Below the pieces are notes generated by a model that was given only the letters and a program-made list of their open reading frames with translations, did no database searches and had not been told where the DNA came from. Of a stretch of 64,000 nucleotides of DNA, positions 344 to 29,360 are shown in pieces; positions within the stretch are counted from its first letter, which is position 1; the number at the start of each line of letters is the position of its first letter. The stretch is taken from positions 34,694,002 through 34,758,001 of the forward strand of contig OX439046.1 of NCBI GenBank assembly GCA_949317995.1, read 5' to 3'. Both the position numbers and the translations under genes were made by a program. The stretch comes from Acholoe squamosa. Its lineage: Eukaryota > Annelida > Polychaeta > Phyllodocida > Polynoidae.

Positions 344-3300
344 CTTTATCAAAAAGAAAAAAATCTTGATTACCATATCCTTTTCTCGTTTAAATATCGA
401 TAATATGTAAAAGTGTAAAGCTGGCAATACAAAAAAAAGAGAGGTCCGTTCAAAACTATGACAAGATATGTCTTGCAGTAGTTGGACTTGAAGTCAATAT
501 TTCAGAAAGATTGCTTAGATACTAGGCAGCATTTGTGACGGTAAAACCATCTAAAGCTTCATGTCCATAGACATACCCGATACCACATCCCTTATAGCTG
601 ACCCTTGGATACATACCCATAGTTAGAATTGAGACAGACAATACGGAGACCTTCCTTCACCAATATGGTGTAATACCCAGCCTTGTAAATGGTCTTTTTC
701 TGTTCTGCCCCAAAGCCTGCAGACTTGCTCCACGCCTCTTCCCATTTTCGGTTAAAAACCTGTAATAAAAAAAAATAAAGTATACACGTATTGAATCAGT
801 ATGCCAGGTGGGCGATATCAAAAGGCACCAAGCCATAGACATAGTTGTATAATTTCAAATTAAAACATGGGACTTTTTTTTTATCTTCCATGTAACGTGT
901 CACTGTGGATAGATTAAGCTATCATAACGTGTCTACAAATTTTGTAGGATAATCATCGCCTACCGTCATGTTTTCATGATGTATTGCTTTGTCCATCGTG
1001 TACAGGTTCAAGGGCATTGTTTCTGAAAAGAACGGGGGAAATGCCCTCAAATTCAACCATTTTGGAGCGGAGCCAAATTAGTAAGTTTCCAGCATCTAGG
1101 CGAGCTCTTGAAATAGAATTAATCCATGGGGAGAAACGATCAAATAAATGATTCAACCTTGTCAAATCAATGATAAACCAGCATTTACATAACCATTGGG
1201 AATAGGGTTTCAGTCCATAATTAGGTAGAATCTGAGTGCTATTTACACACAGAGATCACCTGCATTTTTTGTAGATTCATATTTCCTCGTTCCTACATAC
1301 AAATGTTCTGTTATACGGGGTAGGTTTTGATGCCATTAGTTTTATGAATGCAATCACTCACCATGGTTCCCTATCGCTGGGTAGGTCTTAATGCCATTTC
1401 TGTCAAAGATATTCTTCTCTACCAGACTCGCTGCCAGTTGTGTCACTTTGATTTGGGATTCGTATGTTTCCTCCCAGGCTGAATGGGGCGGATTGTCTCC
1501 TAGATTTATTGAAATATTTGAAATAAAATTAGGATATGGGTATGTTTGGTAGTAAATTAAGGGATGCAATAATATAGAAATTCTGTACATTTCCACAACC
1601 GTTAAGGCCCACCAAACCGTTAGGTAGCGAAGTAAGAATATTGCTCCCATGGCATGTATAGGCCTACACCATCTCATATGCAGCCGAATTAAAAGTGCCC
1701 CAAACCTTTTGTAAAAAATATCTCTTGTCACGTGTTGTGCATTGCTGATGAGAGCCACTTTTCTTTTTTGGTATGATATTTCTTTTTATTCCAAAGAGCT
1801 GAGTGTATGAATATAAAAATGATTTGCGCTTTCAGTGGTTAGATTAAGTCTTTTAAGCTATGTGATAGGTTTATTAACTTAATTTCACATTTTATGGACA
1901 GAGGAATGGTTTTTAACTTACCTGAATATATCAGGAAATCTGGATTCAGTTTAGTAGCAGTAAAGTTGAGGAAATGTTCAATGGTTCGTGGGGGTACATT
2001 ACACTTATATTCTCCCCAGTGTCCGGCAGATCCCTGTGATAAACCATATTTGAAATGATTGCTTTGTGTATAACAGAAATGACTATGGTGTTGCTTAAAA
2101 GATACTTAGGACTATATCAAATAGACACATCACTAATATATTGTATGTGTACTTACATCACTAATATATTGTAAGTGTACTTACATTTCCTGGAAATTCT
2201 CGACGACAACATACTGCATATTCACACTGCATGGCGGAACCCTAAGGAATACATGAAAAACAGATTTTCTTTTTATATGAACAACATCTGGTAATTGATT
2301 GTTGGTTATTCCAGATCAGACCAAGTAGACCTGTCTAACAGTCTCTTAATTTAAACGGCCATCAATAGAAGTTACTAGAATGTTTTACATTTTTATGAGA
2401 TTCATAACGCTAAATGTTTGTCTAAGGAAAAATTACTCCTTTGAATTCCACTGTCAACGAGTCCGTAAATGATGAATAAGGATGAATACAGACGAATCAG
2501 GAATCCAGTTTGGTATCCACTTTATTCATTGAAGTCCACGAGGTATAGTTGGTGATACAGTATAAAGGTGCCCAACAGTGTCCAAGCCTAGCCCTTGAGC
2601 CAAGGGCCTTGATCTCACGTGAGTATGTGAGGTATGAAGTATGAAGGTGGAAAGATGAGTGAGCTGCTCCCTCCACAGGTATTTGTAGTAGGAGCCGCTC
2701 ACCCAGCTCATCCTAAAAATAGTATCAGGTGAGCTAAATATAGTAACTGGGGAACTCCAGTGCAGGTATGTAGGGGGGATCCCAAACATAGCACTGGGGT
2801 TCACAGAGTTCAGTGTGGTTCTAAATATAGCTGCTGGGAACTCCCGGTATGCTGTGAGCTGCTCATGATCAATGGGCATGTCATCCAGCAGGGGGAGTTG
2901 TTTCTAAACATTGTCTGCTAGGAATTTCCAGCATGCAGTGGGCTGCTTGTGATTGACGGCGTATCCTCCAGTGAGGAGGAGGCGGGGTCACTGAGTGCAG
3001 TTGACACCGCCAGCCTTTGGTCTATGGGTATGGCTTGGCTGTGGGTAGACTCGGACACTGGGTTACATGGTAGAGTCAAAGGTGAAAAATAAATATGATA
3101 AGTACAATACCTATAACGGTCTACTGACAAATCCCCACATTCCTACTCGATTCCACGCGAGGTTTTAAGGAGGAAGCTTGTGAGAAAAGGTCTACTGACA
3201 ATATGTTTGATGTATAATAATAGGTATTACATCTTATCATTTAAGTTGAAAGTTTATAGTATTAAGGAGATATTTAATATTGGTTTTTGGTTGAACATGA

Positions 3301-18300: not shown

Positions 18301-21300
18301 TGAGTCTAGCCTGCTCCTCCAGTAATTGTCTGCTACTGATGGGTGGGCTTGGATGTCCGGTACAGTAAGGTTGTCCCAACTTAGGTCAGGTGTACACTGT
18401 GGGTCAGAATTACTGCTGGATGAGGGTGACCGTCCGGCAGCTTCCAGGGCTTCCTGCAGGCTATTGGATCTTTCCTCTAGATGGCTATCTAGGTGGAGGT
18501 AACCAGGTGATTGATTTTCAGGCGTGCTGTATGTGGTACTTTGAAGACCACCTAATCTTAGGGGTGGTGATTCTGAGGGTGAATAGCCAGGTAGGGTGAG
18601 GTTTAAACCTGGTGGTGGGGCTCCTGCTGGTGTACTGGTAGGTGCACCTGTGTTGGTGTCCACTATGGTAGATGAGAAATGTAAGGTGTTTGAACTCACA
18701 GGTGTCTGTTTATGTGTGCGTCTATGGGCTGGTAGCACTGGGTCCAGCTGGAGCGCGTCTGGCGAGGAGTCTATCGGGGCGGCGTACTGTGTACTGGTGG
18801 CTTCTTGCTGGTCTCTGTCTTGAGATGTAGGGATACGTTGTGGGGCTGGCTCCTTTGGTAGGGTCTCACTGTTGTCCATGGCTCATGAGAGGTGGTAACT
18901 TGTGGGATGATACGTGAGGGTTCTCCACCATTGTCAACGAGTCCGTAAATGATGAATAAGGATGAATACAGACGAATCAGGAATCCAGTTTGGTATCCAC
19001 TTTATTCATTGAAGTCCACGAGGTATAGTTGGTGATACAGTATAAAGGTGCCCAACAGTGTCCAAGCCTAGCCCTTGAGCCAAGGGCCTTGATCTCACGT
19101 GAGTATGTGAGGTATGAAGTATGAAGGTGGAAAGATGAGTGAGCTGCTCCCTCCACAGGTATTTGTAGTAGGAGCCGCTCACCCAGCTCATCCTAAAAAT
19201 AGTATCAGGTGAGCTAAATATAGTAACTGGGGAACTCCAGTGCAGGTATGTAGGGGGGATCCCAAACATAGCACTGGGGTTCACAGAGTTCAGTGTGGTT
19301 CTAAATATAGCTGCTGGGAACTCCCGGTATGCTGTGAGCTGCTCATGATCAATGGGCATGTCATCCAGCAGGGGGAGTTGTTTCTAAACATTGTCTGCTA
19401 GGAATTTCCAGCATGCAGTGGGCTGCTTGTGATTGACGGCGTATCCTCCAGTGAGGAGGAGGCGGGGTCACTGAGTGCAGTTGACACCGCCAGCCTTTGG
19501 TCTATGGGTATGGCTTGGCTGTGGGTAGACTCGGACACTGGGTTACATGGTAGAGTCAAAGGTGAAAAATAAATATGATAAGTACAATACCTATAACGGT
19601 CTACTGACACCACAATGGAATTGATATGTTTATATAAGATTATCAATCTCTCACAAAGGACCACCGTAATACCTCACGTATACAAGGGGCATCCTGCATC
19701 CATCTTACCTAAACGCACCCTGAGTTGAAGGAGATACTGTGAAGCGCACATAGTTTGATTTGGGGTACTTAGAACTGTTCTATGATAATTAAGGCACACC
19801 CAATCCCATAAGCCACACTAGGAGCCCATCCTCGCGTTTAAGCCGTTTATATAAATTCCCGCAGGATAACCTATGGGTTGTACTGCGACTTCCTATTAAG
19901 AATTATAAATACAAAACAAAGAAGTCCCATAACCTCTACTCACCTCAGCATATTTCTCATCTATATGGAAGTCTGCAACTTGGACGATCTTCAGAGCGTT
20001 CATTTTCCTCTGTGCATGGTGTCTCTTTTGTGCATGGTTTCCGGCCATTCAGCCCCATACTATCCGGCCCTTGACCATCCAGCACCGTCTATTCAGCCCC
20101 CAATCATTGGGCCCCTTGTCCATTCGGCCCCCGACTGTTCGGCACAATACGTCATAACTACGTCATATGTACATCATAATTACATCATAAATACATCATT
20201 GTTAATATTTCTTTTTTTCCATTCGTCATACCTTCGTCATAAATACGTCAACTAATTTGATGTGTTGCTATACGTCATAACTTCGTCATTAATACATCAT
20301 TAGTTCGTCATAAGTTCGTCATAACTTTGTCATAACTTCGTCATAAATACATCATTTAATAGTGTCTGAATTAGTTATTACTCATAAATACATCATAACT
20401 TCGTCATAAATACATCATAACTTCGTCATAAATACATCATAACTTCATCATGAATACCTCATAAATACATCATAAATGCATCATAACTTCGTCATAAATA
20501 CATCATAACTTCGTCATGAATACATCATAACTTCGTCATGAATACATCATAACTTCGTCATGAATACGTCATAACTTCGTCATGAATACATCATAACTTC
20601 GTCATAAATACATCATAACTTCGTCATGAATACATCATGATGTATTTAAAGGGACAGTTATGACATATTTAGGGGGTCCAGCTATGACGTATTTATGACG
20701 CAGGTATGATGTATTAAATGGCCCAGCTATGACGTATTTAGGGGGTCAGGCTATGACGTATTTATGACGCAGGAATGATGTATTTAAAGGGACAGTTATG
20801 ACATATTTATGACGCAGGTATGATGTATTAAATGGCCCAGCTATGACGTATTTAGGGGGTCAGGCTATGACGTATTTATGACGCAGGAATGATGTATTTA
20901 AAGGGACAGTTATGACGTATTTAGGGGGTCCAGCTATGACGTATTTATGACGCAGGAATGATGTATTTATATGTTTATGGAATGCAGTTATGACGTATTT
21001 ATGACGCAGGAATGACGTAATTATGACGCAGGAATGACGTAATTATGACGCAGGAATGACGATTTCGGATATTAGTTTCCAAAAATTTGATAGGCTCTGC
21101 AAAGCCGGAATGACGTATTTATGATGTACAAATGACGTAAATATGGGATGGAATGGCAAAAAAAAAAATTATGACGAAAATATGACGTATTTATGACACA
21201 TTTGGTGCCGAATGGCTGTGGGCCAAATGGCTGGGGGCCGGATGGACAGGGGGCCGGATGACGAGGGGCTGGATGGCAGGTGCTGGATGGCAGGGGCTGA

Positions 21301-24114
21301 ATGACCTACAATCTTTGTGCATGCGTGCGTCCCCTTCCTTTCAGCTTTGCTTCATGTAAAGTGTCCTTCATAATGTCAGCAGCTGGATGCCAGGTGATGC
21401 CTAAACTAGATCTTTCTGCGGTTATTGGTACTGCTGTTGGCTGTGCTGGTGTTGCTGCCGCTGGCGTAGTAGGGTTAGGATCCTCTATGTTGATTTTACA
21501 AGCGTTCATAAACTCACAAACCTCAAGGGCACTCCTCTTGAGTGGTCCTCTTTGATTGGTTTTCCTGAAAACATACTCAACCTGGAAAGGACGATTAAAA
21601 GATCTTGAGAAAGGATTCATGGGTTTTGTTGAGATCAATTTTACTTCTAAGGTAGGAGCGTATTCTAGGAAAGGTGCTAACGATTATCACATGGAATAGA
21701 CCTATGTATGGATATGGATCCACAATGTGTTTTCTATCATTATATTTATGAATAATGTACTCTGTTAGCTTACCTCGTGACATGGTTTTCTCCTCAATAA
21801 GCAATTAGCCATAAGGTCGAATAAAACAGGATTTCGATATGATTATAATGAATAATGATGAAAGATATATGGTGAGTGGTCTTCTCCCATACAATCTAAT
21901 CGCACCCAGGAACCTCATTATGATATGAATCATGTAGATATAGACGTACATTATATTTCTGTGATATAGACAATTTCACTTACGTGTGGTCCGTAGTTAT
22001 CCAAATATCCTTCACAAATTAAGTTGCCACCAGGAACGAAATCTTTACATGTTGGAATCAGAATTGGACGAAGACTTTTGTATGTTAGGCCTAGCCATAG
22101 TGCCTGCTTAATTGTATCCACTGCCCACTAAAATACAATTAAGAACTTAGTGCATTTTTCTATTAGAAAAGTAGAGCATTATTGGAATTCTGAATAAGTA
22201 GGAAAACAAGGTTAGAAAGTTACATATAATTTCCTTCTGCAAAAGTAACATGTACCATAAAGGTAGATAATCTCTCTTCTCCATCTTATTTGAGTCCAAA
22301 TTGATTTCTCCACACCCTTGTATTATGTTTATTATGGGGTGGCCGTGCCCTACTTTGGAGCTATTTCATCCTAGAAAACGGCCCCACATTCCTTACATTG
22401 GGGTTTTGGCGAAAAATTAAGAAAAAGTTTGAGCTGAATAGCAAAGGCAGTAAGTGGAATGTGTTTAATCTGAGAGTACTGTGAGAAAGTTGAACATTTT
22501 TTGAACAACCAATTTGTAGGAATTGTTAGAATGTGATGATTGAAGTACAGAAAAGTAGAGGTTTGTTGAAGGTGTCCAAATTGTACATAGAGCTCCATAG
22601 TAAATCGACTTTTTTCTTACTACATGTAGGAATGTGATTTTCAGTCAGATGTCAGAATATGTCATCAGCAGTATGTCCTTGAAATTTCATGTTTTTTGTA
22701 TGAATAGTTTCAGAGAAATCCCCATTTTTGTATTTGATTTTACGACTTCACCATAAAGAATGTTTGTTACGGGGAGGAGCTATTGTACTTGCCTTGTAAA
22801 ATATATTGTATGTTGAAGAAGGACCAGGGAATTTGTGGGTGATTTTTTTTATGTGTTTGCTAGATGTATATGTAGAAATGACAAGAAAGGGAGGAGAAAA
22901 ATGTTAGGTTTCGATGTTCAAAGTTGATGTGAATTGAAACATGATTTATAAAGTTAGACCTGGTGCCATGACATCAGTGTAGTAGACCAGAGTTACGTTT
23001 CCTTATATGGTTAGGGAGGTTGGGAGGGGGGAGCAGACGTCTGGTCTTTAACTTGTGAGACTATCCATATATGGTCATAGATTAGGGTTGGAATAGCTTC
23101 ATATGCATGAATGGTGATCTGAATGAATGTTTCAAGTTGTTTACAAATTGATATATCAAAACGTTATGTTTATAATAGGGAATGTGATACAATATTATAG
23201 ATATGTATGGTTTTGATGAAAATAAGGGAACCTACTCTGAAAGTGTTTGTGTTCAAAGCAAAAGATTGCCAGAACTATTTTCTCAGTGCAGTAGACCAGA
23301 GTTGCATTTCCTTATATGGTAAGGGAGGCTGGGAGGGGGAGCAGGCGTCTGGTCATTAACATACATTATGGTTGTTTACTTGTGGAAATATCCATATAAG
23401 GTCCATATGAATGCATCATTCCCTGGTGGGAATGTAATACTGTGGTTTGGCCATTGGAAAGAAGATAGATCTACACATTTTATACCTACCGTGCATCCAC
23501 TGCATTGTGCAGATATGTCCTCTGTAGGTTCAATAGCTGGTAGAGAATGCCCCACTTGGCGTTCAACCATTGCTCTAAATGAGCGAAGTATTTCCGGTCT
23601 CTCCCCAAGATAATTAAAGAGCCGCCTAGAGTTCGACGCACCGGTGGAAGCATATTGGTAGTTTCTGTAGTCCTATATATTACATATATTTGAACTTGTA
23701 AGAGAACTTGAAATAACATTTACAGGCTAAAGAAAGATGAAGGAGGCTTACCCAAGAAGTACATAGGCCATCAAACAAATAAATGAATTGATGTAGTTAC
23801 AATTAATCATAAGATATCAGTATCATGCTGAAGAATAAATTATACGGTGAAAGAGGAGATCACAGTTCCATATGGATAGATACTTGAGCGATTGATCCAT
23901 GCTATATAAAAATGATGATTAGGACTGTACTTTACTGTGGGAAAAAACAACAAATACGCATACTATGTAGAATTATAAGCAACACAATTGTATTAATATT
24001 TATATGGGCTATATGTACAAATGTAAATCCTACCTTGTTACCAATTACCACCCCTGCTAAAAGCAGAAAGGTGAGAGGTATTATGAATATCACTTGCTGC
24101 TTGTGGAGTTCCAT
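235..24114 (-). CDS. SMPD1: Acid sphingomyelinase-like gene, 11 coding exons, 3' end off window
   Basis: Acid sphingomyelinases hydrolyse sphingomyelin to ceramide and phosphocholine in lysosomes or outside the cell. Eleven exons assemble in one frame with GT/AG borders and encode the first 454 residues: a signal peptide (about 1-25), a saposin-B domain with six cysteines (C-x2-C in exon 2, two in exon 3, two in exon 4), a Pro/Thr/Ala-rich linker, then the metallophosphatase core. Metal motifs seen are ADFHID (exon 5), SGDNPPH (exons 7-8) and a GNHE completed across the exon 8-9 junction. The later His motifs (HIPPG and GHTH in the family) would lie left of base 235. The saposin domain argues for true ASM rather than the SMPDL3 type. 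Intron 5 holds a 17-kb retroelement and intron 4 is almost entirely a foldback element, yet every splice phase is intact. What is inferred is the splicing; no transcript was available. Confidence 0.93.
617..759 (-). CDS. SMPD1: ASM exon 10
   Basis: It reads VFNRKWEEAWSK and continues through AGYYTILVKEGLRIVCLNSN to a split Gly codon, donor gtatgt. This matches the ASM region with the W-x(n)-GGFY-x(n)-LISLN pattern. Confidence 0.93.
964..1022 (-). CDS. SMPD1: ASM exon 9: completes the GNHE motif
   Basis: A 59-base exon after a pyrimidine-rich cttttcag. Its first two bases complete a Glu codon, giving GNHE, and it continues TMPLNLYTMDKA where the family has a Pro/Asn-rich stretch. Donor gtaggc, phase 0. 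Found by phase and motif logic, since it is too short to stand out as an ORF. Confidence 0.82.
1362..1499 (-). CDS. SMPD1: ASM exon 8: second metal-binding motif
   Basis: It opens with GDNPPHSAWEE (the GD metal motif) and ends YPAIGNH plus one base of the next codon, followed by gtgagt. The length is 138 bases and the phase matches both neighbours. Confidence 0.95.
1922..2033 (-). CDS. SMPD1: ASM exon 7
   Basis: It reads GSAGHWGEYKCNVPPRTIEH and continues to LIYS with a split Gly codon, donor gtaagt. The AGHWGEYKC segment is characteristic of ASM family proteins. Confidence 0.93.
2185..2241 (-). CDS. SMPD1: ASM exon 6
   Basis: Nineteen codons, phase 0 to 0, with the CCRR cysteine pair that follows the first metal motif in ASM proteins. 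In the genome it is 17.7 kb from exon 5 because of the retroelement in between. Confidence 0.9.
2452..3129 (-). repeat. 3' LTR of the Ty3/Gypsy-class element
   Basis: Same length as the 5' LTR and no mismatch found reading line by line. AATAAA on the minus strand at 2521-2526 could end transcripts of the element, and also host transcripts passing through. Confidence 0.95.
3130..3150 (-). other. Candidate polypurine tract
   Basis: Just before the 3' LTR the element sense strand reads GTAGGAATGTGGGGATT, purine-rich but interrupted. The position is right for plus-strand priming; the sequence is only moderately convincing. Confidence 0.4.
3151..4314 (-). other. 3' untranslated part of the LTR element
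   Basis: AT-rich, no ORF of note, no clear repeat. Probably 3' untranslated sequence of the element. Confidence 0.5.
4315..5115 (-). CDS. 266-codon accessory ORF with acidic patch and basic tail
   Basis: ATG at 5115, complete. The N-terminal half has scattered Cys and Trp (CRAAELTW, YFCWSPCDPC), the middle an acidic Ser-rich run (SSEEDSDSDTS, possibly phosphorylated), and the C terminus two basic clusters (KKSRSRRRPS and RHRRRK) like nuclear-localisation or RNA-binding sites. No family recognised. The charge pattern would suit a nuclear regulator, which is inference. It is the longest ORF of the 3.6-kb block between env and the 3' LTR. Confidence 0.5.
   Translation of the reverse strand: MQWRYPCRAAELTWTLDIPVSRSHLAMSLHRPGDTAHQYALPNSLPYLSIWYFCWSPCDPCTMIDPKTKNPPSLVLFFQYRGQRPNRGGGDRIDRPAGDSGRPDTPIPTGLPHWSTRVCSPIGPPTRFATLGRNCPHLMYSYSCPCSINKDNRPETFKTIGSTQVWRPLPKTYQASSEEDSDSDTSLSAEPIDMDPAYSSDLNLQPDSGKPSRMHFSKIVNFVPNTKKSRSRRRPSLGRSLNPHVFNHQDPPPKGLANQSRHRRRK
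5279..5527 (-). CDS. Small single-span membrane ORF in the accessory block
   Basis: From an ATG at 5527 the frame gives about 82 residues with one strong hydrophobic segment (MLVVVLPLVLSLIQSSYV) and a basic, Pro-rich C terminus. The frame is open further upstream to 5617 without an ATG. Small membrane accessory proteins are common in complex retroviruses, but no family match is claimed. Confidence 0.35.
   Translation of the reverse strand: MTTILARTIMLVVVLPLVLSLIQSSYVKIRSLSDPKIASALFYIRIQNGSIKLIFGPIFPKKRIIKIQNSSQPNPPLGPRIA
5439..5720 (-). CDS. 93-codon basic, His-rich accessory ORF
   Basis: ATG at 5720. The first two thirds are rich in His, Arg and Gln (RHRHRNR, HHHGQEDQSRRHDHN), the end is hydrophobic. 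It overlaps the next membrane-type ORF in another frame. Unknown function. Confidence 0.3.
   Translation of the reverse strand: MTLHRRPANLDPQEKYSETTETIGVRHRHRNRPLFAQKCSKFPSYRYSPAKSDHHHGQEDQSRRHDHNPCADNHVGRCFTARLISYTILLCQN
6342..6686 (-). CDS. 114-codon accessory ORF, unknown function
   Basis: ATG-initiated ORF 30 bases after the env stop. The product is Pro/Ser/Thr-rich with a basic patch (SERRRSV) and no membrane segment. No family recognised. The plus-strand frame over the same bases is also open for 79 codons, so chance is possible. Confidence 0.35.
   Translation of the reverse strand: MDSPGRPIHRIAQSNTFMWGSSPSLIALNPTPPTIKTLFNNISSTIAQFRPTITQLFRLTVKAHRTMRPRHLVSDVASGSPPNAASERRRSVSPLPSASPTSDLFHFSHVGMTT
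6716..9466 (-). CDS. env: env-like membrane glycoprotein ORF
   Basis: 916 codons, type I membrane protein layout. A hydrophobic N-terminal segment at about 22-38 looks like a signal peptide. A dibasic R-K-A-R at 139-142 looks like a furin site and is followed by a Gly/Ile-rich stretch (about 146-161) that could be a fusion peptide, then a long helical, coiled-coil-like region (165-290) with several N-x-S/T sites and a Cys-containing domain at 400-520. Hydrophobic segments occur at about 614-631 and 697-712, then about 200 residues of tail. The layout recalls errantivirus and baculovirus F-type fusion proteins. The frame has no ATG at its start; an acceptor (TTTAAAG, 9466) with TACTAAC about 40 bases upstream suggests a spliced mRNA whose leader carries the gag start codon in compatible phase. 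Confidence 0.82.
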   Translation of the reverse strand: MNPTIKIFKILKIFNFFSFSRAAAILAVCIFLHLLLGCTSTSDNNLNTIFRPNYGALFTKLPQTLLANYMDYPLTFSLNLTFDQNLSQPKLLSPLISTDAPQYIKHTAHALDNMIQSLFSKSKTTLKTLSKLISPPNVRKARNAPGQVIGDILRASIGLGTQPEIDILNSEMSDLDKKLATKMHVVELATHFLLNISEFNYNSVNIFSKFQNDTDDALSFISGKLEHLNSNISSILLKLELQSRQDTFYSMLFTAANSQIESLIDLQSDLKNLLLTINNLLEGTLPQSIITQDDLSLGLNNLSSLLHKAHHGIILEGLPINYYYQRRVHVHWSHNSSLLITIPVPITRGGSTFSIFRIETFPVPFDTSDTKSVGHTQVEPLPGYLAMSRTHSHYIQFTQADLDMCDLGHLISCNLPLPLLSATHPTCTLSLFLDLPEAVHHTCSFKAHMAAPIPNLIQPLSHSTFLLITDHPTSMLQCTDSGQVKIKNRAYSVISVPCLCSIKNAGMILTNSDLSCTQNFTLEPISKAYFNLPLWRHFGQPPANVSGITMATTTQTLHLPNFEKLKHLHNQKIAPLFQDTLTLKRAAQGLKDQSALLSTNSLMHLGYHLQFSPWIHLVSPLLALLCCALTLKNHLRVNQLARFITLVSATRTPKMANAESWDRFKDLIRQANKNWPAPQTTPDTDLDFVQSPDRYQDMFTWILIATLLYITWSTAKRCLRHWPYCKQDSHRTPSIVAKIHANGQTFDFTVGKMIYGQNLWAPTITAPKVSPARLTAPLGRHLDLHWKSDIRTIIGGQVRQIPLQRYPPVPLLWRIPLYRVLKGAHHMTVVISSEGQPDFQLASSDTDPAIQLPCESWPADRHDSPAELTKYTPLRHQPKKNKYMYKQPEMMLTPPSTSTSGKFSSKTYFDPHVGIN
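9573..10109 (-). CDS. 178-codon ORF of unknown function between pol and env
   Basis: A complete ORF from ATG to stop, about 1.2 kb after pol and just before env. The product looks globular and soluble, with helix-like segments (for example LITFLAQEDIKHYLSS and ASIVFQFAVFEINRFHAQ), no signal peptide or membrane segment, and a Pro/Thr-rich tail. I do not recognise the family. Its place resembles that of accessory genes in complex retroviruses; the function is unknown. A subgenomic mRNA would be needed to express it. Confidence 0.6.
   Translation of the reverse strand: MTYSLDPPANKHGPNATWTIHSLLGPHGIRSDLMDPFEIRSIIMEQQHLITFLAQEDIKHYLSSPVLRQELDLSNHSTAATIKAFMVAVAGDNPRRPPWGRFNHRSASYIALLCARTLIASEQPLRDLPRQYSRIGRELAIRNTASIVFQFAVFEINRFHAQARVPPLTVTTGTSPSA
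10110..11085 (-). other. Stretch between pol and the 178-codon ORF
   Basis: No convincing gene. Two short open frames at 10480-10728 (starting at TTG) and 10742-10954 have biased Pro/Thr/His composition and no recognisable domain. It could hold splice signals for downstream mRNAs. Confidence 0.5.
11086..11283 (-). CDS. Small Pro/Asn/Thr-rich ORF after pol
   Basis: 65 codons from an ATG at 11283, directly after the pol stop. It is rich in Pro, Asn, His and Thr with no domain I recognise. Composition alone cannot show that it is translated. Confidence 0.2.
   Translation of the reverse strand: MCQTPNIHINNPPSFPTGATRPNQINQPLIHQPLKHTDSNSHRPTPNLFILTAIKIPMHPKSTPP
11295..14792 (-). CDS. pol: pol: reverse transcriptase, RNase H, integrase
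   Basis: The frame opens after a stop at 14795-14793 and has no ATG at its start; residues here count from base 14672. RT has SKLDVYSAY (about 123-130) and catalytic YVDD at 187-190. RNase H has its acidic residues near D333, E376 and D401 and ends NLVADCLSR. A basic, Pro/Ser-rich insert of about 150 residues (455-610) holds an AT-hook-like RPRGRPAKS. The integrase zinc domain has H710, H718, C747 and C750; the catalytic triad is D780, D840, E876 with exactly 35 residues between the last two. A GPY motif (SGPYIIM) follows, then a second AT-hook-like KKRGRPAKK near the C terminus. All catalytic residues are present. Confidence 0.95.
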   Translation of the reverse strand, partial: SPRSATQRGRPSKIYNICDKLSEAQKQQIKNIVESNREAFLLNESAIGLNVENEVKLELIPDFKPCNRPSYRMSPKKEIFQRELLDKHLQQGVIEECTKPCEWNSPAFLVPKPQGDRSVASGWRIVVDYRWVNQNLKSFSYSFPRADDLMQQVGRTGAKYFSKLDVYSAYHLIPLAKESRPLTTFSANGTRYMAKVLPMGLKTSGLSFMNVMEQLLMKCKYRNAVAYVDDVAIYSPTWERHLQDLDEVLKLFIKGNIKLKSEKCEFGTTKMEFLGFTLDQHGISPSPDKISPVKTFPAPKNIHDLRCFNGMAQFYKRFIRGFAHIMKPLYEATKGTFKWTTQCQTAFEKIKASICTEAILKFPDYNKPFIIFTDSSNFSLGAVITQVDEHGFYRPIEFSGRGLTPQETRYGITDKELLGIIFAVKKFHHYVDGTHFKVYSDHTALVSLFNKKENITNGRLARWVDTVMSYDFEVKYLQGRANLVADCLSRRKYPPGSDDPIPIRSQGKIILPPKRVQFSDISMTKVFKSDDPIPNNPICLGPPRSILKGGKIWGSTNKPPKGVIARKGTPERQQSVNPDLCVLTRAQSQSQDDTPPAASQSAPSKKTRPLKPKCSSPRPRGRPAKSRSPRVSIKAANAKRAKLSRRVLPLAERAIQEICKHQSLTPSRETLIKSQKEDLFASSMANYIEKGSLPHDSELMNQILRNHDQFILLDEVLFRITDTNLGKTLEPTLQIVIPEKWTESLVEATHCSPLGGHLGPVKTYTAIRARYYWRSMFKEVFDFCGTCHTCLTTKKRPKNLKTPMKLRDPVLTAYSHVTMDTIGPFSKAADGSHYIHVVTDHATRHVTAWTSEENTAAVVALGFFQKVICIHGTPSVLNTDNAQQYVSKLFKYFCEKFGIKHVTGSAHWSRSQGLCERQHQTIESSLRAFVSKSQKHWSTFLQAVVFSINNTISSALGYSPNLLVFGKQTHLPTEAALSLIKAEKDSSTREKIMTSLLQFRDDIQMRAAENMISAHKKMKARHDTSAELSSYNTGQLVYLHIPTLLVKCTSKKLQPTYSGPYIIMRMTSPVTAILKRLQNGKILKKSVHVSRLRRPITRASAKAIIKRLQSGPTSSLHDPDQDDPSNVSLTTPKTKKKRGRPAKKGTISFSPMPSRKSRKISKRPL
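14666..15358 (-). CDS. pro: Protease C-terminal part and linker, shifted -1
   Basis: Open from just after a stop at 15361-15359. It contains IILGVNFM, the second conserved protease block (ILG-x-[DN]-[FW]), then a linker of about 150 residues. It is one frame (-1) from the upstream protease half and also -1 from the RT frame. No canonical XXXYYYZ slip site in the right phase was found in the overlap at 15292-15358, so a frameshift mutation is as likely as programmed shifting. Confidence 0.75.
   Translation of the reverse strand, partial: EISHGYPTSCESSVQVNNSITITFLINNTEFKTRLHVVPKLNHPIILGVNFMTKYRAKISFGAKSPSPHFIRAAKGLTMPPNSESTFNAIVIGPDSLIGKTGITENVDTTLPVLIKHALVEPRSTRKIIPVTVANPNDFSINIKKHMNLGIFALNNLDKAIPIGKLNSQHSLNSIISDKEMLPINCGDDPLDQLPKGDDPLKYTIYVTSSLRPKNNKSKTLLNQIERPFC
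15292..15780 (-). CDS. pro: Protease region in gag frame after a TAG codon
   Basis: This frame continues that of gag directly after TAG and has no ATG near its start. It carries the aspartic protease signature VDSGASLSFIS; the Asp is the catalytic residue, two copies of which meet in the dimer. The frame stops at 15292 before the flap-to-ILG part of the fold, which continues in the next frame. Expression would need readthrough of UAG. Confidence 0.85.
   Translation of the reverse strand, partial: DTGEGHHASYSPAPTLDNKIGTSPTCHISHTNDGAELNSAEQQNHDPQPVNCDEDSSSDSEDLYENQNKRISTLQLKVETSKYGQQGKTSYINTELTKGAVNVDINGSSYRALVDSGASLSFISQKMADKIISTPNFRHGRRSRMVILLAVNPQFRSTIPSL
15781..18879 (-). CDS. gag: gag of the Ty3/Gypsy-class element
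   Basis: 1032 codons from ATG at 18879, the first ATG of a good ORF after the primer site. The first third is Pro/Ser/Thr-rich and looks disordered. A likely coiled coil follows (near LSRINDRLNDMDTWKSHLEN), then a Retrotrans_gag-like capsid segment around residues 680-860 with LKGRAAQWFF and KETVEEYIADM. The end has an Asn-rich run (eight Asn) and Arg/Ser stretches. No CCHC zinc knuckle is visible; the basic Asn/Arg/Ser region may bind RNA instead. It ends at TAG (15783-15781) and the same frame stays open into the protease. A splice donor (AACA/gtgaga) lies in codon 4. Confidence 0.92.
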   Translation of the reverse strand: MDNSETLPKEPAPQRIPTSQDRDQQEATSTQYAAPIDSSPDALQLDPVLPAHRRTHKQTPVSSNTLHFSSTIVDTNTGAPTSTPAGAPPPGLNLTLPGYSPSESPPLRLGGLQSTTYSTPENQSPGYLHLDSHLEERSNSLQEALEAAGRSPSSSSNSDPQCTPDLSWDNLTVPDIQAHPSVADNYWRSRLDSAIHRWRENRLNTGRVQLIPTGATPSYQCGESPSVFLDRINRILEEQWQDNSNPTNLLRPHQNPQPDSNPPGGNPRPYYPYSTSEEDRATPPAPNSSLSTPPRARSFERPYPTHRPRRRVQSSSPQRPNTPVFYRLQRSLDSAARRGDLVATTPILHRNSHFPAHLQTESTSEEDTEVTFPHLHRAPAYPNMATAAPPPEYNQDDMTRNIVRECTQAVNDSLSNLLTGQMNLLSAEIKRIGDDSSCQLSRINDRLNDMDTWKSHLENDIGQIQRKAAQDNADVLRRSEIASANLSDRINRNIDGMRSEIFRAIDRTRTPTSQGQNSLFSPTNTRLPPSGQPSHVMGTSTRMPTSVPVGYRLSPPSLFQNTTRMIATGATPTQQGATHAGFGNSATTHQMAPSTTRPSPVAATSLSGSVYNNVYIPHQAHTPYNNPIPMYGLFTNTPPAQAAAHQPAAQSTPMIPNLGQSNFSAPTGYRSFEPERLTSAQLSCFNKPEPFDKPSPYRSAARFLAEFKFYIRNAYPRSPTMHASCMYTFLKGRAAQWFFTNIFDKPIMYDTEAVYAAFLSRFNQPDPATIIKGYRNRKQQPKETVEEYIADMTLLLSNSNLDESVQVDYLINGLKDEIKNVVLSDSPKSIREAETAALKQELVMEAAKAAHASNQTSDLCAMNYNNYNGQRNNNNNNNNRSRKDQYNNNKPPGNGNIKQYDDKPKSGYNQNQQGYNNPRPGSNSRSGSKNRYQSPGRSKSQEGNRSRSKSSDTRNNFVFIPVASTPTNTRQVSFQKLLVPADFPIPDDWTLQQKKSRDPTPGRNDNKKTEDNHHDNQPPDSGQGEHYNDNIE
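18910..18931 (-). other. Candidate tRNA primer-binding site
   Basis: One base after the 5' LTR the element reads TGGTGGAGAACCC in sense. A TGG start complementary to a tRNA CCA end is the usual form of a primer-binding site. I did not identify which tRNA matches. Confidence 0.6.
18932..19609 (-). repeat. 5' LTR of the Ty3/Gypsy-class element
   Basis: 678 bp, beginning TGTCAGTAGACC and ending CTCGTTGACA in element sense, so TG...CA ends. An AATAAA polyadenylation signal (tttatt on the plus strand) lies at 19001-19006. Short ORFs inside it are chance. Confidence 0.95.
19944..20007 (-). CDS. SMPD1: ASM exon 5: first metal-binding motif
   Basis: Sixty-four bases, phase 2 to 0, reading KMNALKIVQVADFHIDEKY and ending AE before gtgagt. 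D-x-H is motif I of the calcineurin-like metallophosphatase fold. The acceptor is acagag, 29 bases downstream of the foldback element on the minus strand. Confidence 0.92.
20037..21313. mobile_element. Foldback-type element forming nearly all of ASM intron 4
   Basis: The ends are inverted: CATTCAGCCCC at 20047 and GGGGCTGAATG near 21303. Each end continues into degenerate iterations of CCATCCGGCCC or its complement. The left interior (about 20150-20640) repeats TACATCATAACTTCGTCATA; the right interior (about 20640-21190) carries complementary words such as TATGACGTATTTATGACG, so the two halves can fold back. A 10-bp direct repeat TTTGTGCATG flanks it at 20027-20036 and 21314-21323, which I take as the target-site duplication. 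No coding capacity is seen. The exact ends are uncertain by a few bases because the outermost bases pair imperfectly. Confidence 0.82.
21310..21581 (-). CDS. SMPD1: ASM exon 4: end of saposin-B domain and Pro/Thr/Ala linker
   Basis: It starts VEYVFRKTNQ after ctttccag and carries the last two saposin cysteines in EVCEFMNAC. A linker rich in Pro, Thr and Ala follows, then a basic end (KGRGRTHAQR). The exon ends in phase 2 at gtaggt. That donor lies inside the right terminal repeat of the foldback element at 20037-21313, so the last 4 exon bases are transposon-derived. Confidence 0.9.
21984..22127 (-). CDS. SMPD1: ASM exon 3: saposin-B domain, middle
   Basis: Forty-eight codons, phase 0 to 0, starting WAVDTIKQALWLG and ending LDNYGPH before gtaagt. 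It supplies the third and fourth saposin cysteines (TCKDF and ICEGY). Confidence 0.92.
22978..23395. repeat. Duplicated block in ASM intron 2
   Basis: The segment starting gtagaccagagttacgtttcc (22981-23078) recurs at 23290-23400 with a few changes, including the G-rich ggaggttgggaggggg core and tatccatata. Direct repeats about 310 bp apart; probably a local duplication. The rest of the intron (22128-23489) shows nothing recognisable. Confidence 0.75.
23490..23672 (-). CDS. SMPD1: ASM exon 2: start of saposin-B domain
   Basis: Sixty-one codons, phase 0 to 0, acceptor tatatag and donor gtaggt. It ends in CSGCT, the first cysteine pair of the saposin-B fold. A second possible acceptor lies 8 bases further in but would break the phase with exon 1. 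Confidence 0.85.
24034..24114 (-). CDS. SMPD1: ASM exon 1: start codon and signal peptide
   Basis: Twenty-seven codons from ATG at 24114, ending at a gtagga donor in phase 0. After a short polar start (MELHKQQ) comes a hydrophobic run (VIFIIPLTFLLLAGVVIG) typical of a signal peptide. An upstream in-frame ATG at 24180 would add 22 polar residues ahead of it, so the inner ATG is preferred. Confidence 0.8.
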
Positions 24115-24281
24115 CACACTGCTGAGACTTCTTCCATATGTGTGATACTGATAGTTCAGCTGGCGAGGGTAGCTGACCATATGGCAAGGCTAGTGAATAT
24201 AGACGATAAGGCAAACATGTGTCTTACATAGATTAGAGTAACAAAGCTTACATAGATTAGAGTAATAAAGTAAGTTTGATA

Positions 24282-24323
<42 letters not shown>
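24115..24323 (-). promoter_or_regulatory. Short remaining 5' flank of the ASM gene
   Basis: Only about 210 bp separate the ASM start codon from the B2 end of the YR element; about 40 of these are (TA)n. It contains a short direct repeat (gcttacatagattagagtaa / gtcttacatagattagagtaa). No TATA box or other promoter signal can be assigned with confidence. Confidence 0.4.

Positions 24324-24324
<1 letters not shown>
24283..24324. repeat. (TA)n microsatellite
   Basis: About 20 TA units. A matching short (AT)n tract continues at 29217-29234 on the other side of the YR element, so the element seems to have landed inside one TA tract. Confidence 0.9.
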
Positions 24325-24326
<2 letters not shown>

Positions 24327-24486
24327 TTATCTCGCTACCAGGGAATAATAATACCGGTAATAACGATGATATTAAAGAGGATAACAGAGATGATAATATA
24401 TATACAGTGGTAATATAAATGATCATATCACAGACACATGAGTTTGGTGGGTTACTGACCTTGGGGCTATCAGCACCATACATGCC
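24324..24486 (-). repeat. B2 repeat of the YR element
   Basis: Terminal copy of B. It abuts a (TA)n tract at about 24283-24324 that probably marks the target site. Confidence 0.92.
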
Positions 24487-24588
24487 TTTATTAAAACAAC
24501 TATAATAATTAGTTGACAATAAGGATAGTCAGTAAAATGCATAATATAATAACAATAATACAGTCATAACAATAGTAATAACAATAGT

Positions 24589-24803
24589 AAAATTTAAAAT
24601 TCCAGGGAACACCCAGCGTGGTGTTACCTGTACAGGTGAAAACGAGCCAATTGGCCGTTACATTGAAAACTCCCCCTTATATATGGGAGGAGTGTTTACC
24701 ATGACGTCATGCTATGACATCATAGATACCAATACGCACAGAAAGTAGTCCCTAACCGTTCGCGGCTAATTATATATATATACACGAGTGTATATAGTTC
24801 CAT
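24589..24803 (-). repeat. A2 repeat of the YR element
   Basis: Direct copy of 29004-29218, joined directly to B1 at ...ttccat/aagtta. This junction should equal the circle junction formed by the recombinase. Confidence 0.93.
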
Positions 24804-24966
24804 AAGTTATCTCGCTACCAGGGAATAATAATACCGGTAATAACGATGATATTAAAGAGGATAACAGAGATGATAATATATATACAGTGGTAATATAAAT
24901 GATCATATCACAGACACATGAGTTTGGTGGGTTACTGACCTTGGGGCTATCAGCACCATACATGCC
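24804..24966 (-). repeat. B1 repeat of the YR element
   Basis: 163 bp, from aagttatctcgct to accatacatgcc; same as 24324-24486. Confidence 0.93.
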
Positions 24967-25010
24967 AAACACCTAAACACGCCAAACACATGTGAACAAA
25001 CACATACCAA

Positions 25011-25958
25011 TCAACAATGCAATTGAGATTGGCAAATCCTATCTAAATCTAAAAGTTCACTTTTATGATTATGTAAATATGTAAAAACAGAATTAGATTT
25101 CCAATTTACCTTCTTCTTAATAGACTCTATACTAAGTCCTGCGTCCTTTAACATAGTAGCCCCACCATGCCTAAGTGAGTGAGTGGAGACTGAACCTCTG
25201 ATACCAGCACGTAAAGATAAAGATTTCAACTTTGAATTAATATATTGGTACTGTAGAGTAACACCATTAATTTTAAATAAAAAATCACTCGCAGCCCTAC
25301 CTGTGCACAATTTTCCTAACCCTCTACATGGACATAACAGTGAGGTATCATCCCTACATAAGTATATGTTAAAGGCATGGCCACCAAGTTGATCAGTCTT
25401 AGAAGTATTAATGCTAAGACTAGCATAACTTTTAAAAATTCTTACATCACCTACCCTTAGTGTATGAGGGGAAGATACAACATGCCCCATCCTGAGGACA
25501 CCTCTATAACATAACAGAATAGCTAACCAGAACTTCAAGTCAGCCCTGTTGGAGAGATCCAAATATGATCTAATACATAACATCTCTTTTGGACTCAAAG
25601 GATGAATAACCCTAGTTGGAACAGCATAATTTCTACCAATACCATCTAACACCTTTTTTAGCATGAAATTACTGCTATGGTCTAGGCCACCCCTAAGCTT
25701 TTGATGATACCAAATGGACGATAAATAATTCCTTACAGAAGAAGGTCTCATATGTTCGGATAAGTATACTGCATATGTAGCAGCCTGTGAGGGAGAACAA
25801 GGGAAATAAGTTAAATTGAATTCTTTACAAAATTTTTTATACCTGTTAAGCTGCTGTCTCCTTGTTCTCCTCGTGCTCTCTGACACACCCTTCGATAAAA
25901 GACACTTTTTTCTTTTTTGTAACCTTTTCCATTCTGGAATCAAAACAACACATATCAT
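25011..25958 (-). CDS. Tyrosine recombinase of the YR element
   Basis: 315 codons from ATG at 25958, overlapping the end of RT-RNase H by 113 bp in another frame. The N-terminal core-binding part (SESTRRTRRQQLNRYKKF) precedes the catalytic domain: Arg in CYRGVLRMGH, H-x-x-R in THSLRHGGAT (about 260-263) and the nucleophile Tyr in VFTYLHNH (about 294). This enzyme inserts the circular cDNA in place of an integrase. All R, H, R and Y residues are present. Confidence 0.93.
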   Translation of the reverse strand: MICVVLIPEWKRLQKRKKCLLSKGVSESTRRTRRQQLNRYKKFCKEFNLTYFPCSPSQAATYAVYLSEHMRPSSVRNYLSSIWYHQKLRGGLDHSSNFMLKKVLDGIGRNYAVPTRVIHPLSPKEMLCIRSYLDLSNRADLKFWLAILLCYRGVLRMGHVVSSPHTLRVGDVRIFKSYASLSINTSKTDQLGGHAFNIYLCRDDTSLLCPCRGLGKLCTGRAASDFLFKINGVTLQYQYINSKLKSLSLRAGIRGSVSTHSLRHGGATMLKDAGLSIESIKKKVNWKSNSVFTYLHNHKSELLDLDRICQSQLHC

Positions 25959-27906
25959 TTTCAAGAAGAGAGTTTACACATTTGACCAGTATACCCTTAT
26001 AAGCAAGCCTAGATAGTTGGTCGGCCAGGACATTGTCTTCTGACCTAATATAGGTTGCATACACCTCTACATTATTGATAAAACAAAGCCAAAAAATCTC
26101 TCTAAGCCATTCCATACACAGCTTATTTTTTGACCTACCGGTATTTACCATAGCTAACACTTGCATATTGTCGGTAACGCAATGTATTCTTTTATTTTTA
26201 CAGCCAGATATCCAACGTTTAAGACCCATAAGAAGAGGATATAACTCGTACACATTTATATTTCTATGGTGGTTCTTTACATTATCCAGTATGGGTGGTT
26301 GGGTAAAATGACCACTACCTAGATTAAATTTATCGAAAGATGTCCAGTCACCATATAAATAATCTTTATCCATCCATGCACCGAAGCCTTTCATGGAAGA
26401 ATCTGAGTACATAGGTGTGTCAATATCATCATTTAGAATTAACCTCTTACAGTTAAAAACTCTACAAAAATCCAACCACCATTGGAAGTCTTGGCGAGTG
26501 CAAGCTGATACCCTAACATAACCACCTGGTCTGGCCCGGGCACAGAGATCGAAAATTCGCCTACTAAAAGTTCTACCACCCTTAACCACCTGCGAGCAGA
26601 AAGACATTAAACCACCTATCCTCTCCAAGTTCTTTTTTGAAATAAATTTCTTATTAACGTTATCCAACAAGAGATTTTCCATTTTCTCAACCTTTTCAAC
26701 AGGCAAAGACAGTTCCAACTTAACTGAATCTATGTTAATACCTAAGAATTTACAAACTTGAGATGGGTCGGTCACCTTTTCTCTGGATACTACAAAGCCC
26801 ATGTAGGTCATACATTCCATTAATACATTTCTTTGTCTAAGACATTCATCATAAGTATCAGCAATTATGATAAAATCGTCCAGATAATTTACAATTTTTT
26901 CTACACCGTAGAATTTTGCCACTTCCACAATAAAATCAGAGATTCTATTAAAGATATACGGGGCACATTTCAGGCCAAAAGTTAACCTGTTACTCACATA
27001 ATACTCCTCCCCATGCCCAAAATTCCATCTGAAACCTTGCATGGTCGTATGAGGTGCATACACATTTATAGACCTGTACGCTGATTTTAAATCTACCACA
27101 CTCATGAAATTGTTCTTATTCAATTGAGCAGTCACCGTGCTAATACTATTATAAGAAAATGTCGAGCTAGTAGTCTCCATAAAATTATTAATGGATATCT
27201 TATCCGGCATACTACAGTCAGTTATGGGTCTTAACTTGCCATTCGATTTTTCTACACCACCTAGGGCATGGATACAACGGGGTTTATCTGCAGTTTTAGA
27301 GACTAGACCAGCCTCTAGTTCATCCAACAATATACCACAGTACTCGTTATAGAATTTACCTTCGAGGATTGATTTATAATTTCTGCAATCATAAGAAGTG
27401 TTGCAGCCAGGATCCACTATCCTGAACCCCTCAACAAAACCTTGCCATAAGAATAATGCCTCTTTATCATTTATATTAATAACTCCCTTTTGGGTTAAGA
27501 ATGGGGCCACTCTGCAAGGTAAAATTTGGGCTATTTCACCATGAATATAATGTACACACTCACACATACCATTTATACAACTGTCATATACTCTGATGCT
27601 AGGTAAATTTTTTACAACAACAGTAAATAATGGTTCAACTTCACCCTGTACTGGATGACTATGTGTAACATTTACAATTTTTGAGTTAATATTAACATCA
27701 ATATTAACCTCATTAACCAAGTCATATTGACTATGGTCACTCGGGGGGACAAAAATATTTTTATCCGATTCAGAATTAATATTTACAACACCCTCATCTG
27801 AAACTTTGGGTAGGGGTAATCTAAGGTCTACCACATTTACTAACTTTGCTTCTGGCACCAGGATATCGAAACCTACAGAGTTAGGACCTAAATTACCATC
27901 ATTTTC
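25846..27906 (-). CDS. pol: Reverse transcriptase-RNase H ORF of the YR element
   Basis: The frame is that of gag continued after TAG, with no ATG near its start, so UAG readthrough is the simplest route. Residues are counted from base 27858: conserved RT blocks include VVDLKSAYRSI (254-264), LTFGLKCAPYIF (292-303) and catalytic YLDD at 325-328. RNase H follows at about 480-640 with YSDSSMKGFGAW, NVYELYPLL and VTDNMQVL as acidic blocks, ending NVLADQLSRL. The order and motifs are those of DIRS-type elements. Confidence 0.93.
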   Translation of the reverse strand, partial: ENDGNLGPNSVGFDILVPEAKLVNVVDLRLPLPKVSDEGVVNINSESDKNIFVPPSDHSQYDLVNEVNIDVNINSKIVNVTHSHPVQGEVEPLFTVVVKNLPSIRVYDSCINGMCECVHYIHGEIAQILPCRVAPFLTQKGVININDKEALFLWQGFVEGFRIVDPGCNTSYDCRNYKSILEGKFYNEYCGILLDELEAGLVSKTADKPRCIHALGGVEKSNGKLRPITDCSMPDKISINNFMETTSSTFSYNSISTVTAQLNKNNFMSVVDLKSAYRSINVYAPHTTMQGFRWNFGHGEEYYVSNRLTFGLKCAPYIFNRISDFIVEVAKFYGVEKIVNYLDDFIIIADTYDECLRQRNVLMECMTYMGFVVSREKVTDPSQVCKFLGINIDSVKLELSLPVEKVEKMENLLLDNVNKKFISKKNLERIGGLMSFCSQVVKGGRTFSRRIFDLCARARPGGYVRVSACTRQDFQWWLDFCRVFNCKRLILNDDIDTPMYSDSSMKGFGAWMDKDYLYGDWTSFDKFNLGSGHFTQPPILDNVKNHHRNINVYELYPLLMGLKRWISGCKNKRIHCVTDNMQVLAMVNTGRSKNKLCMEWLREIFWLCFINNVEVYATYIRSEDNVLADQLSRLAYKGILVKCVNSLLENDMCCFDSRMEKVTKKKKVSFIEGCVREHEENKETAA

Positions 27907-28959
27907 CTATTCGCCTCTAGCCTTGGAGCATTCCAACTTATTATGACTCGTGCCATTACACACGCTGCAAACATGCCTATATTTACATGGTTCCTTCGAG
28001 CAACCTTCTGCCCTGTTGTATGCATAGCATGGGTTATTAGACGATCTCTGTTTGCCTCTGTTTATGGGTTTAGCACCGTAAGCTTTCTGGGCCTGAACGG
28101 TCCCATCGTATGCCAAATGACGTAGTATATCTGAATTTTCAATGGTTGAAAAAGCCTCTATTCCACTATCATTAGCCCTGTCCCTCACTGACTTATCATA
28201 GGCTACCAGGGCTGAAACCGTATATATTTTGGTGCCAGACTTTTCAATTAGTACCTGAAGATGTTTAAGCATACCCTCAACATCGTCACCTGATTTGTAG
28301 TACTTCAAAATAAACTGCAAGTTTACAGACATCAATTTCTCAATAGTATCAATTTTTTCCTTACGTTTGGTGAATTGAGAATGATCAAACTCACCCGATT
28401 TTACACGGTGATGATGCCTAGAGTAAGTTGAATCCAATGACGACCCTCTAGATGTGCTCGGGCTGCATTGACGAGCAGAAATACTGGATTTAGACGATCG
28501 TCTATGTCGCTTGTGATCAACTTGCACCCATTCGTCCCCACCGTCAGACGAAATTTCGCATGGAGACGCTTGGCGGGTAGCCCTAGCAACCGGTCCGCGT
28601 CCTTGACTACGTGACGTCATACCTCTCTGTTTGTAAACATCCGCACGTGCTCTGCTGGAACGACTTGACGCATTGACGAATCCTCCACCCCGATCGTCCT
28701 TTCCATTGACGACCTCTTGTAGAAGTGATTTAATGGTCGACAACTCGTCTTCTAATACATCTAGCCTCGTCTGGTCAATAGACGACCCTCCCACAACACC
28801 TGTAACAGTTCGGGGAACCGACGGTGTATCACCAGTAAGTGAGAGAGTCGAACTACTCGTAAGTCCTAAATTGGCCGATTTTTTCGTCTTTTCCACCGAT
28901 TTAACCGATTTTCCCTTTGGTGTATTGGCCTTCGAGCCTTTAGCAGCCTTTCTACCCAT
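27907..28959 (-). CDS. gag: gag-like ORF of the YR element
   Basis: About 350 codons from ATG at 28959; the open frame extends 7 codons further without an ATG. The N terminus is Lys/Ser-rich and basic, the middle has a helical segment (STIKSLLQEVV), and the C terminus has cysteine clusters CYAYNRAEGCSKEPCKYRHVC and CSVCNGTSHNKLEC that resemble nucleic-acid-binding zinc fingers. It ends with TAG at 27909-27907 and the same frame continues open into RT. Confidence 0.85.
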   Translation of the reverse strand: MGRKAAKGSKANTPKGKSVKSVEKTKKSANLGLTSSSTLSLTGDTPSVPRTVTGVVGGSSIDQTRLDVLEDELSTIKSLLQEVVNGKDDRGGGFVNASSRSSRARADVYKQRGMTSRSQGRGPVARATRQASPCEISSDGGDEWVQVDHKRHRRSSKSSISARQCSPSTSRGSSLDSTYSRHHHRVKSGEFDHSQFTKRKEKIDTIEKLMSVNLQFILKYYKSGDDVEGMLKHLQVLIEKSGTKIYTVSALVAYDKSVRDRANDSGIEAFSTIENSDILRHLAYDGTVQAQKAYGAKPINRGKQRSSNNPCYAYNRAEGCSKEPCKYRHVCSVCNGTSHNKLECSKARGE

Positions 28960-29003
28960 TTCAATGGTAAATAAAGGCACCAGGAGCCCCTCAAAACGGT
29001 TAA

Positions 29004-29218
29004 AAAATTTAAAATTCCAGGGAACACCCAGCGTGGTGTTACCTGTACAGGTGAAAACGAGCCAATTGGCCGTTACATTGAAAACTCCCCCTTATATATG
29101 GGAGGAGTGTTTACCATGACGTCATGCTATGACATCATAGATACCAATACGCACAGAAAGTAGTCCCTAACCGTTCGCGGCTAATTATATATATATACAC
29201 GAGTGTATATAGTTCCAT
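29004..29218 (-). repeat. A1 repeat of the YR element
   Basis: 215 bp, from aaaatttaaaattccagg to agttccat on the plus strand; the same 215 bp occurs at 24589-24803. It contains a short hairpin-forming stretch (ACTCCCCC...GGGAGGAGT). Confidence 0.93.
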
Positions 29219-29360
29219 ATATATATATATATAATATGCATAATGTATTTCTTAACGAGGGCTGGACCAATTATACTTGAAGGTCAACATGTTATTGTGA
29301 TTGGAACTTCCCATGTATCTGAAGGTCAATGTGCTGCATTGTGAATGAGGTGTCCAATAT

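Follow-up and report, generated by a model that had tools for sequence, protein, structure and literature searches.

A foldback transposon inserted in a linker exon of an acid-sphingomyelinase-like gene of Acholoe squamosa, a candidate case of intron birth

In the annelid Acholoe squamosa, a foldback transposon has almost certainly landed in the coding sequence of what was one continuous exon, within the linker between the saposin and catalytic domains of an acid-sphingomyelinase-like (ASM) gene, as judged from two paralogs in one genome. This is a single case and a candidate for the birth of an intron, given that the insert may be spliced productively and behave as a new phase-2 intron, a reading which is placed just short of an even chance. 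The window, i.e., the whole stretch of DNA that was analysed, has 64,000 nucleotides and lies on contig C12 of a 1.48-Gb assembly; the features discussed here are collected in Table 1.

Table 1. Features of the host gene, the element and the candidate splice sites (positions in the window)
Feature	Position	Strand	Remarks
Exon 2	23490..23672	-	start of the saposin domain; donor ACG/GTAGGT
Exon 3	21984..22127	-	saposin domain; exon model
Exon 4 as modelled, 272 nt	21310..21581	-	acceptor tttccag/GTTGAG at 21581; last 4 nt, GATT, derived from the element
Target site duplication, copy 2	21314..21322	.	TTTGTGCAT; 9-bp duplication, final target bases of exon 4
Foldback element, 1,278 bp	20036..21313	-	ends set by alignment with other copies; inverted and tandem repeats
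Candidate 5' splice site GTAGGT	21304..21309	-	4 nt into the element; score 4.9
Target site duplication, copy 1	20027..20035	.	TTTGTGCAT; 9-bp rule of the family
Former coding stretch between the element and exon 5 as first read	20008..20026	-	coding in the homologous part of the paralog L050
Candidate 3' splice site A, aaaagag/A	20022..20024	-	in frame; score -2.7; spliced exon of 351 nt, the length before insertion
Candidate 3' splice site B, cacagag/G	20007..20009	-	that of the earlier note; in frame; score -9.5; 336 nt, 15 nt shorter
Exon 5 core, KMNALKIVQVADFHIDEKYAE	19944..20007	-	start of the catalytic domain; from KIVQ on, aligned to solved acid sphingomyelinases
Exon 6	2185..2241	-	exon model
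Later exons	1922-2033, 1362-1499, 964-1022, 617-759, 235-343 and beyond the window	-	exon model

The host gene lies on the minus strand and presents the domain order expected of its family (saposin, linker, metallophosphatase), and it is probably an acid sphingomyelinase of the SMPD1-like type. A sequence search matched its catalytic part to the sphingomyelin phosphodiesterase 5hqn (E = 6.4e-43), and the homolog search with the gene retained only two of 5,774 candidates, a fungal protein and a protein of the annelid Owenia (P0001, 31% identity), which is collinear in the saposin region and matches in both the saposin and the catalytic parts. Twelve exons were modelled, beginning at 23672 and reaching into the adjoining sequence (L047), all of them open and all with GT-AG borders, and no second lesion was found in these twelve apart from the insertion of the element; exon 1 was not found in the modelling, and two additional C-terminal exons were read by eye only. 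Other mobile sequences also occur in the window. Inside intron 5, two direct repeats of 300 nt (2448-2747 and 18928-19227), 100% identical and 16,480 bp apart, look like the marks of a large, seemingly recent LTR-type retroelement, while the region upstream of exon 2 (24589-29219) holds retroelement ORFs for a reverse transcriptase and a phage-integrase-type recombinase, together with identical direct repeats of 216 nt, and by this content is presumably DIRS-like.

The landing in an exon can be read from the empty site. A protein search of the genome led to a close paralog (L050, C12:24330596-24339548), which is one of three related loci found on the same chromosome besides the window gene (L050, L051 and a fourth), and in which a single open exon corresponds to exons 4 and 5 of the window gene, both ends of exon 4 resembling the paralogous exon. 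At the insertion point, the paralog reads GRRHVHARKRRHAQRKENALKIVQLADFH within one exon, and the window, once the element and one duplication are removed, reads GRGRTHAQKRHHAQRKMNALKIVQVADFH, gap-free; in a longer reading, KMEGRRHVHARKRRHAQRKENALKIVQLADFHIDEKFTE of the paralog faces KLKGRGRTHAQKRHHAQRKMNALKIVQVADFHIDEKYAE of the window treated in the same way, again with zero gaps, and the two linkers are unequal in length further upstream of the insertion point. As the paralogous exon runs through this point without a gap, exons 4 and 5 were almost certainly one exon formerly. Of the 28 nt formed by one target copy and the next 19 nt, 22 are identical in the coding exon of the paralog, where the best of 20,000 random 28-mers from 22300-24500 reached 15. 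An earlier note on this DNA had proposed that a continuous coding exon is left when the element and one duplicate are removed, which the empty site bears out, and its reading of the flanks in frame into KMNALKIVQ was reproduced from the sequence.

The same place also seems to be coding in the third paralog (L051), whose apparent linker intron, with borders judged by eye, is situated about 25 codons upstream of the insertion point and is in phase 0, not 2. An intron at the same position in distant relatives lacking the element had been named beforehand as the observation that would speak against an intron gain; of these two paralogs of the same genome, L050 has none there, and L051 appears to have one elsewhere and in another phase. 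Over 270 codons, the window gene and L050 differ by a dS of 1.06 and a dN of 0.22, a ratio of ~0.21 by which they show past constraint against each other. The linker of L050 has also grown into a long array of APTTDA-type repeats (C12:24331755-24332582) between the saposin and catalytic domains.

The element ends in imperfect inverted repeats, GGTTTCCGGCCATTCAGCCCC on the plus strand at 20036 and GATTGTAGGTCATTCAGCCCC on the minus strand at 21313, and its interior consists of arrays of 11/22-bp and longer units that face each other. For the alignment of the ends, 40 left-end matches were scored from 101 candidates and 40 right-end matches from 125; in the aligned copies, the left end starts with GGTTTCCGG, varying slightly, and the minus-strand right end with GATTGTAGG. 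The earlier note had placed the element at 20037-21313, filling nearly the whole intron between flanking repeats, and both the filling and the repeats hold, with the start moved to 20036 by the family alignment. A target duplication of 10 bp was rejected, since the family comparison gives the 9 bp of TTTGTGCAT, in two identical copies in the window, and the supposed tenth base is the first G of the element beside a chance G in the target. Similarly, a second CATGCACA at 20011-20018, which had seemed to leave the duplication in doubt, was discarded as an alternative duplication and does not blur the first, because L050 has CATGCAC at both places and the motif is thus old coding sequence.

Across the genome, the right end was found at 134 places with at most two mismatches, against none for a reversed control pattern, and among the 100 listed of these 134 places, 37 are exact and two have an altered GTAGGT. 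The target duplication was compared on both flanks in 30 copies, including that of the window, and is perfect in 22 of these, has one mismatch in five (L020, L021, L034, L045 and L035) and is out of the 9-bp register in three (L012, with an 8-bp match instead, L017 and L032). Set apart from the 30 are L036, the left end of which is truncated, second pairings of doubtful standing in L012, L043 and L045, and three looser pairings, one in L070 (perfect) and two in L072 (no match). The element thus combines dispersed copies, fixed ends and a target duplication of constant length with long inverted arms made of tandem repeats. Foldback transposons such as Tetris of Drosophila virilis have inverted terminal regions of tandem repeats, variable length and little coding content, and the present element resembles them in this anatomy. 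In ~3 kb of inner sequence translated from 22 copies that were either longer or unpaired, no transposase ORF was recognisable by eye. By its copies and its anatomy, the element is identified as a non-autonomous foldback DNA transposon.

Some further observations concern the wider family. A sister group of right ends, GATTGTAGGTCATTCGGCCCC (e.g., L074, L076 and L077), makes up 55 of the 100 places listed, compared with the 37 exact ends of the window type. The duplication of L070, CTGCCAAAC, has letters that are found in a sister-group end, as has the left flank at one of the L045 ends, and for this reason both copies seem to have landed within another element. The same element ends also occur 47.3-47.8 kb apart at G000:C10:78050851-78098197, C2:58135868-58183527 and C2:29894020-29941777, each pair with a perfect 9-bp duplication (end pieces L013/L054 on C10, and L015/L056 and L016/L057 on C2); over the first 3 kb, two of these copies are 99.9% identical and the third is ~95% like them. 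They look like giant transposons, and could carry the machinery that moves the small foldback copies.

When its ends are compared with 13 other left and 15 other right ends, the window copy has two private differences, and one more at the alignment edge, over ~280 bases, i.e., a private change of ~1%. For the whole element, including the repeat arrays, the closest of six complete copies are L012 (96.8%) and L011 (95.6%), which makes the divergence figure of the interior larger than that of the ends. Judged by these figures, the insertion is recent, or young in evolutionary terms, and the intact state of the gene therefore tells little about its present function.

The donor that the earlier note had seen 4 bases inside the terminal repeat is confirmed as a candidate donor sequence, the letters GATT/GTAGGT being the same in all 16 aligned right ends. 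Its score, obtained from a matrix built on the other introns of the gene (n = 11 only) and therefore a rough guide, is higher than that of 93% of the 3,125 minus-strand GTs in the window, with the other introns of the gene ranging from 1.5 to 9.6, and the same hexamer also serves as the donor of exon 2. Ten AGs are found between 20060 and 19944, of which only 20022 and 20007 keep the frame, and 20022 has the highest score of the ten. Both score below all the other 11 acceptors of the gene, the lowest of which has -1.2, and 20007 is the lowest of 12 acceptors in the gene and at the 13th percentile of 3,562 minus-strand AGs. Neither has a pyrimidine tract, so the use of the candidate intron may be partial. 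As for the acceptor at 20007 that the earlier note had derived from old coding sequence, the origin stands, by homology with L050, and the site itself scores below the other frame-keeping choice. The competing out-of-frame AGs at 20024 and 20009 each lead to a stop, as read by hand, and the unspliced frame stops at once (AGA TTG TAG), which leaves splicing as the only way seen of keeping the catalytic domain joined.

The rescue of the frame is, however, weak evidence and expected by chance, because an in-frame AG lies within 60 nt at 967 of the 1,463 coding sites of the gene at which the insertion was simulated, and an in-frame fit was accordingly rejected as proof of splicing. In the same simulation, an in-frame AG with a score of at least -2.7 was found at 334 sites and an option of the same length at 80, while the GATT itself makes a stop at 107; the same-length option of the window is mildly unusual. 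The RNA of the candidate intron is predicted to form one main hairpin, at -532 kcal/mol over 1,302 nt (a value with no shuffle control for that length), which does not take in the first three donor bases or the final 35 bases. Such a hairpin is expected, given that a repeat array facing its own inverse must fold in this way.

In the favoured reading, the foldback transposon was inserted in the linker exon with its 9-bp target duplication, and the right terminal repeat, by starting with GATT/GTAGGT, gave the transcript a candidate donor that begins 4 nt into the insert. The transcribed insert may then fold into the predicted long hairpin, bringing the donor near the far flank, and, if the insert does behave as an intron, the spliceosome would connect GATT with an AG of the former exon that lies a little past the second target copy. 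Use of 20022 would retain the original length, with KR changed to RL, and use of 20007 would remove five residues; the expected junction would be ...CAAAGATT followed by ACACCAT (20022) or GAAAATG (20007).

A sister insertion is found in another exon. At L024 (C11:7524330-7529330), an element of 1,008 bp (2003-3010) splits the exon SCYQCAADDPK/CADPFVPDSFTPVKC in the same orientation, with a perfect 9-bp duplication and with the exon borders ctgcag/GAG (acceptor) and CTTG/gtaagt (donor). This exon has a below-cut-off Pfam match to the Quiver Ly-6-like family and an uninterrupted relative at C11:7082828 (44%). Here, the GATT would give AAA TGA, a stop ahead of the donor of the element, which would not rescue this exon; the family thus reaches exons without any built-in guarantee of rescue. 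A spanning ORF of at least 90 aa is present at 11 of the 30 empty sites (the window, L024, L032 and eight others), in a scan which followed only the longest such ORF and may miss further exon hits. None of the eight others has a Pfam match at E up to 0.1, and the sole Pfam match of L032 is far below the cut-off. Among 20 further right ends with one-sided flanks, 18 were parsed and none was recognisable as coding by eye, and about 100 of the 134 right ends fall outside the reading of both flanks. Two of the 30 copies compared on both flanks, those of the window and L024, sit in exons that were recognised, and only the window copy can use this donor in frame.

The same exonic insertion may, on the other hand, have produced a disabled or weakened allele, a serious rival that is only slightly less probable than productive splicing. 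In this case, productive splicing would not occur, and transcripts would run into the read-through stop or use the out-of-frame AGs; the animal that was sequenced might then have a null that is either harmful or tolerated, with buffering by the paralogs. The weak acceptors, the immediate TAG when unspliced and the young look of the insertion favour such an allele, as does the Ly6-like exon of L024, where the TGA precedes the donor and the family can be seen to land in exons regardless of splicing, and the three more related loci on the chromosome could buffer a loss. The fair donor argues against it, together with the two in-frame acceptors, one of which restores the exact length, and the lack of a second lesion among the 12 exons of the model, although not much decay should be visible after a young insertion.

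It is very unlikely that the exonic insertion is bypassed in some other manner, by an upstream cryptic donor or another downstream AG that would yield a shorter linker. The linker is long and variable, being filled with APTTDA-type repeats in L050 and much shorter in the annelid relative, but of the four GTs in 21400-21240, those other than the candidate are GTCATT after 21306, which scores 1.3 and gives an exon ending in an in-frame TAG, and two that score below -3. Hardly credible is an old intron which received a nested transposon, or a neighbouring old intron extended by the insert, even though introns are frequent in this gene and L051 appears to have one in the linker, since that intron differs in place and phase. 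The closest paralog is one open frame across the place, and one copy of the duplication is in exon 4 and the other in the present intron, so that just 19 nt of old sequence are left ahead of exon 5 as first read; as this remnant is homologous to the coding sequence of the paralog, no old intron fits at the site, and an ancestral intron was rejected on the open frame of L050 and the remnant together.

The reading of the insert as a new, spliced intron has parallels elsewhere. In 1994, Giroux et al. reportedly described a Ds element in the maize shrunken-2 gene that made a de novo intron, with the RNA shown. That case also involved a single exon insertion, reportedly removed as an intron with a slight change in the protein, removal being a candidate in the present case; the transposon superfamily and the host are different. 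One review counts the insertion of transposons among the routes proposed for intron gain and gives cases from rice, fly, Oikopleura and maize (PMC3443670). The published search for introners retained families of at least four introns in which the similarity starts no further than ten intronic bases from the borders (PMC9860276). In the window, the insertion into a coding exon is evident from the empty site of L050, with the intron itself a candidate, and similarity within ten intronic bases is found on the 5' side, while the other end of the element is 13 nt away from the acceptor at 20022 and 28 nt away from that at 20007. Given this distance, and one candidate among the copies read on both flanks as opposed to at least four introns, the published criteria do not place the element in the introner class, and the introner mode of intron birth claimed in the earlier note is too strong a description.

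The introners of Chrysochromulina take the donor from the end of the element and the acceptor from the target, an arrangement that is a candidate here, and they too are inserts in coding sequence with a target duplication; in that system, however, the duplications have 4 bp and there is no evidence of inverted repeats, in contrast with the 9 bp and the long foldback of the present element (PMC9860276). Published introner families also comprise several similar introns, with median lengths of 30-654 nt, compared with one candidate of ~1.3 kb, and the survey of 2022 found introners in only two animal groups among 3,325 genomes (PMC9860276). Among the papers listed on foldback elements with intron gain, or on introners after 2022, none named a foldback-made intron in molluscs or their relatives.

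Finally, the origin of new introns in animals is an old open question, and in this case its steps can be read in one genome, i.e., the intact exon of a paralog, the exon with the element and its fresh 9-bp duplication, and the candidate donor in the end of the element. It is possible, if fairly unlikely, that the terminal repeat acts as a portable 5' splice site, in which case sense insertions in exons that escape a stop would become self-folding hairpin introns for which weak acceptors suffice. The 134 right ends of the element form a convenient sample on which to gauge the use of this donor at other sites, and if the terminal repeat is indeed a portable donor, the ASM locus would represent an intron soon after its birth, with the empty site kept in a paralog.
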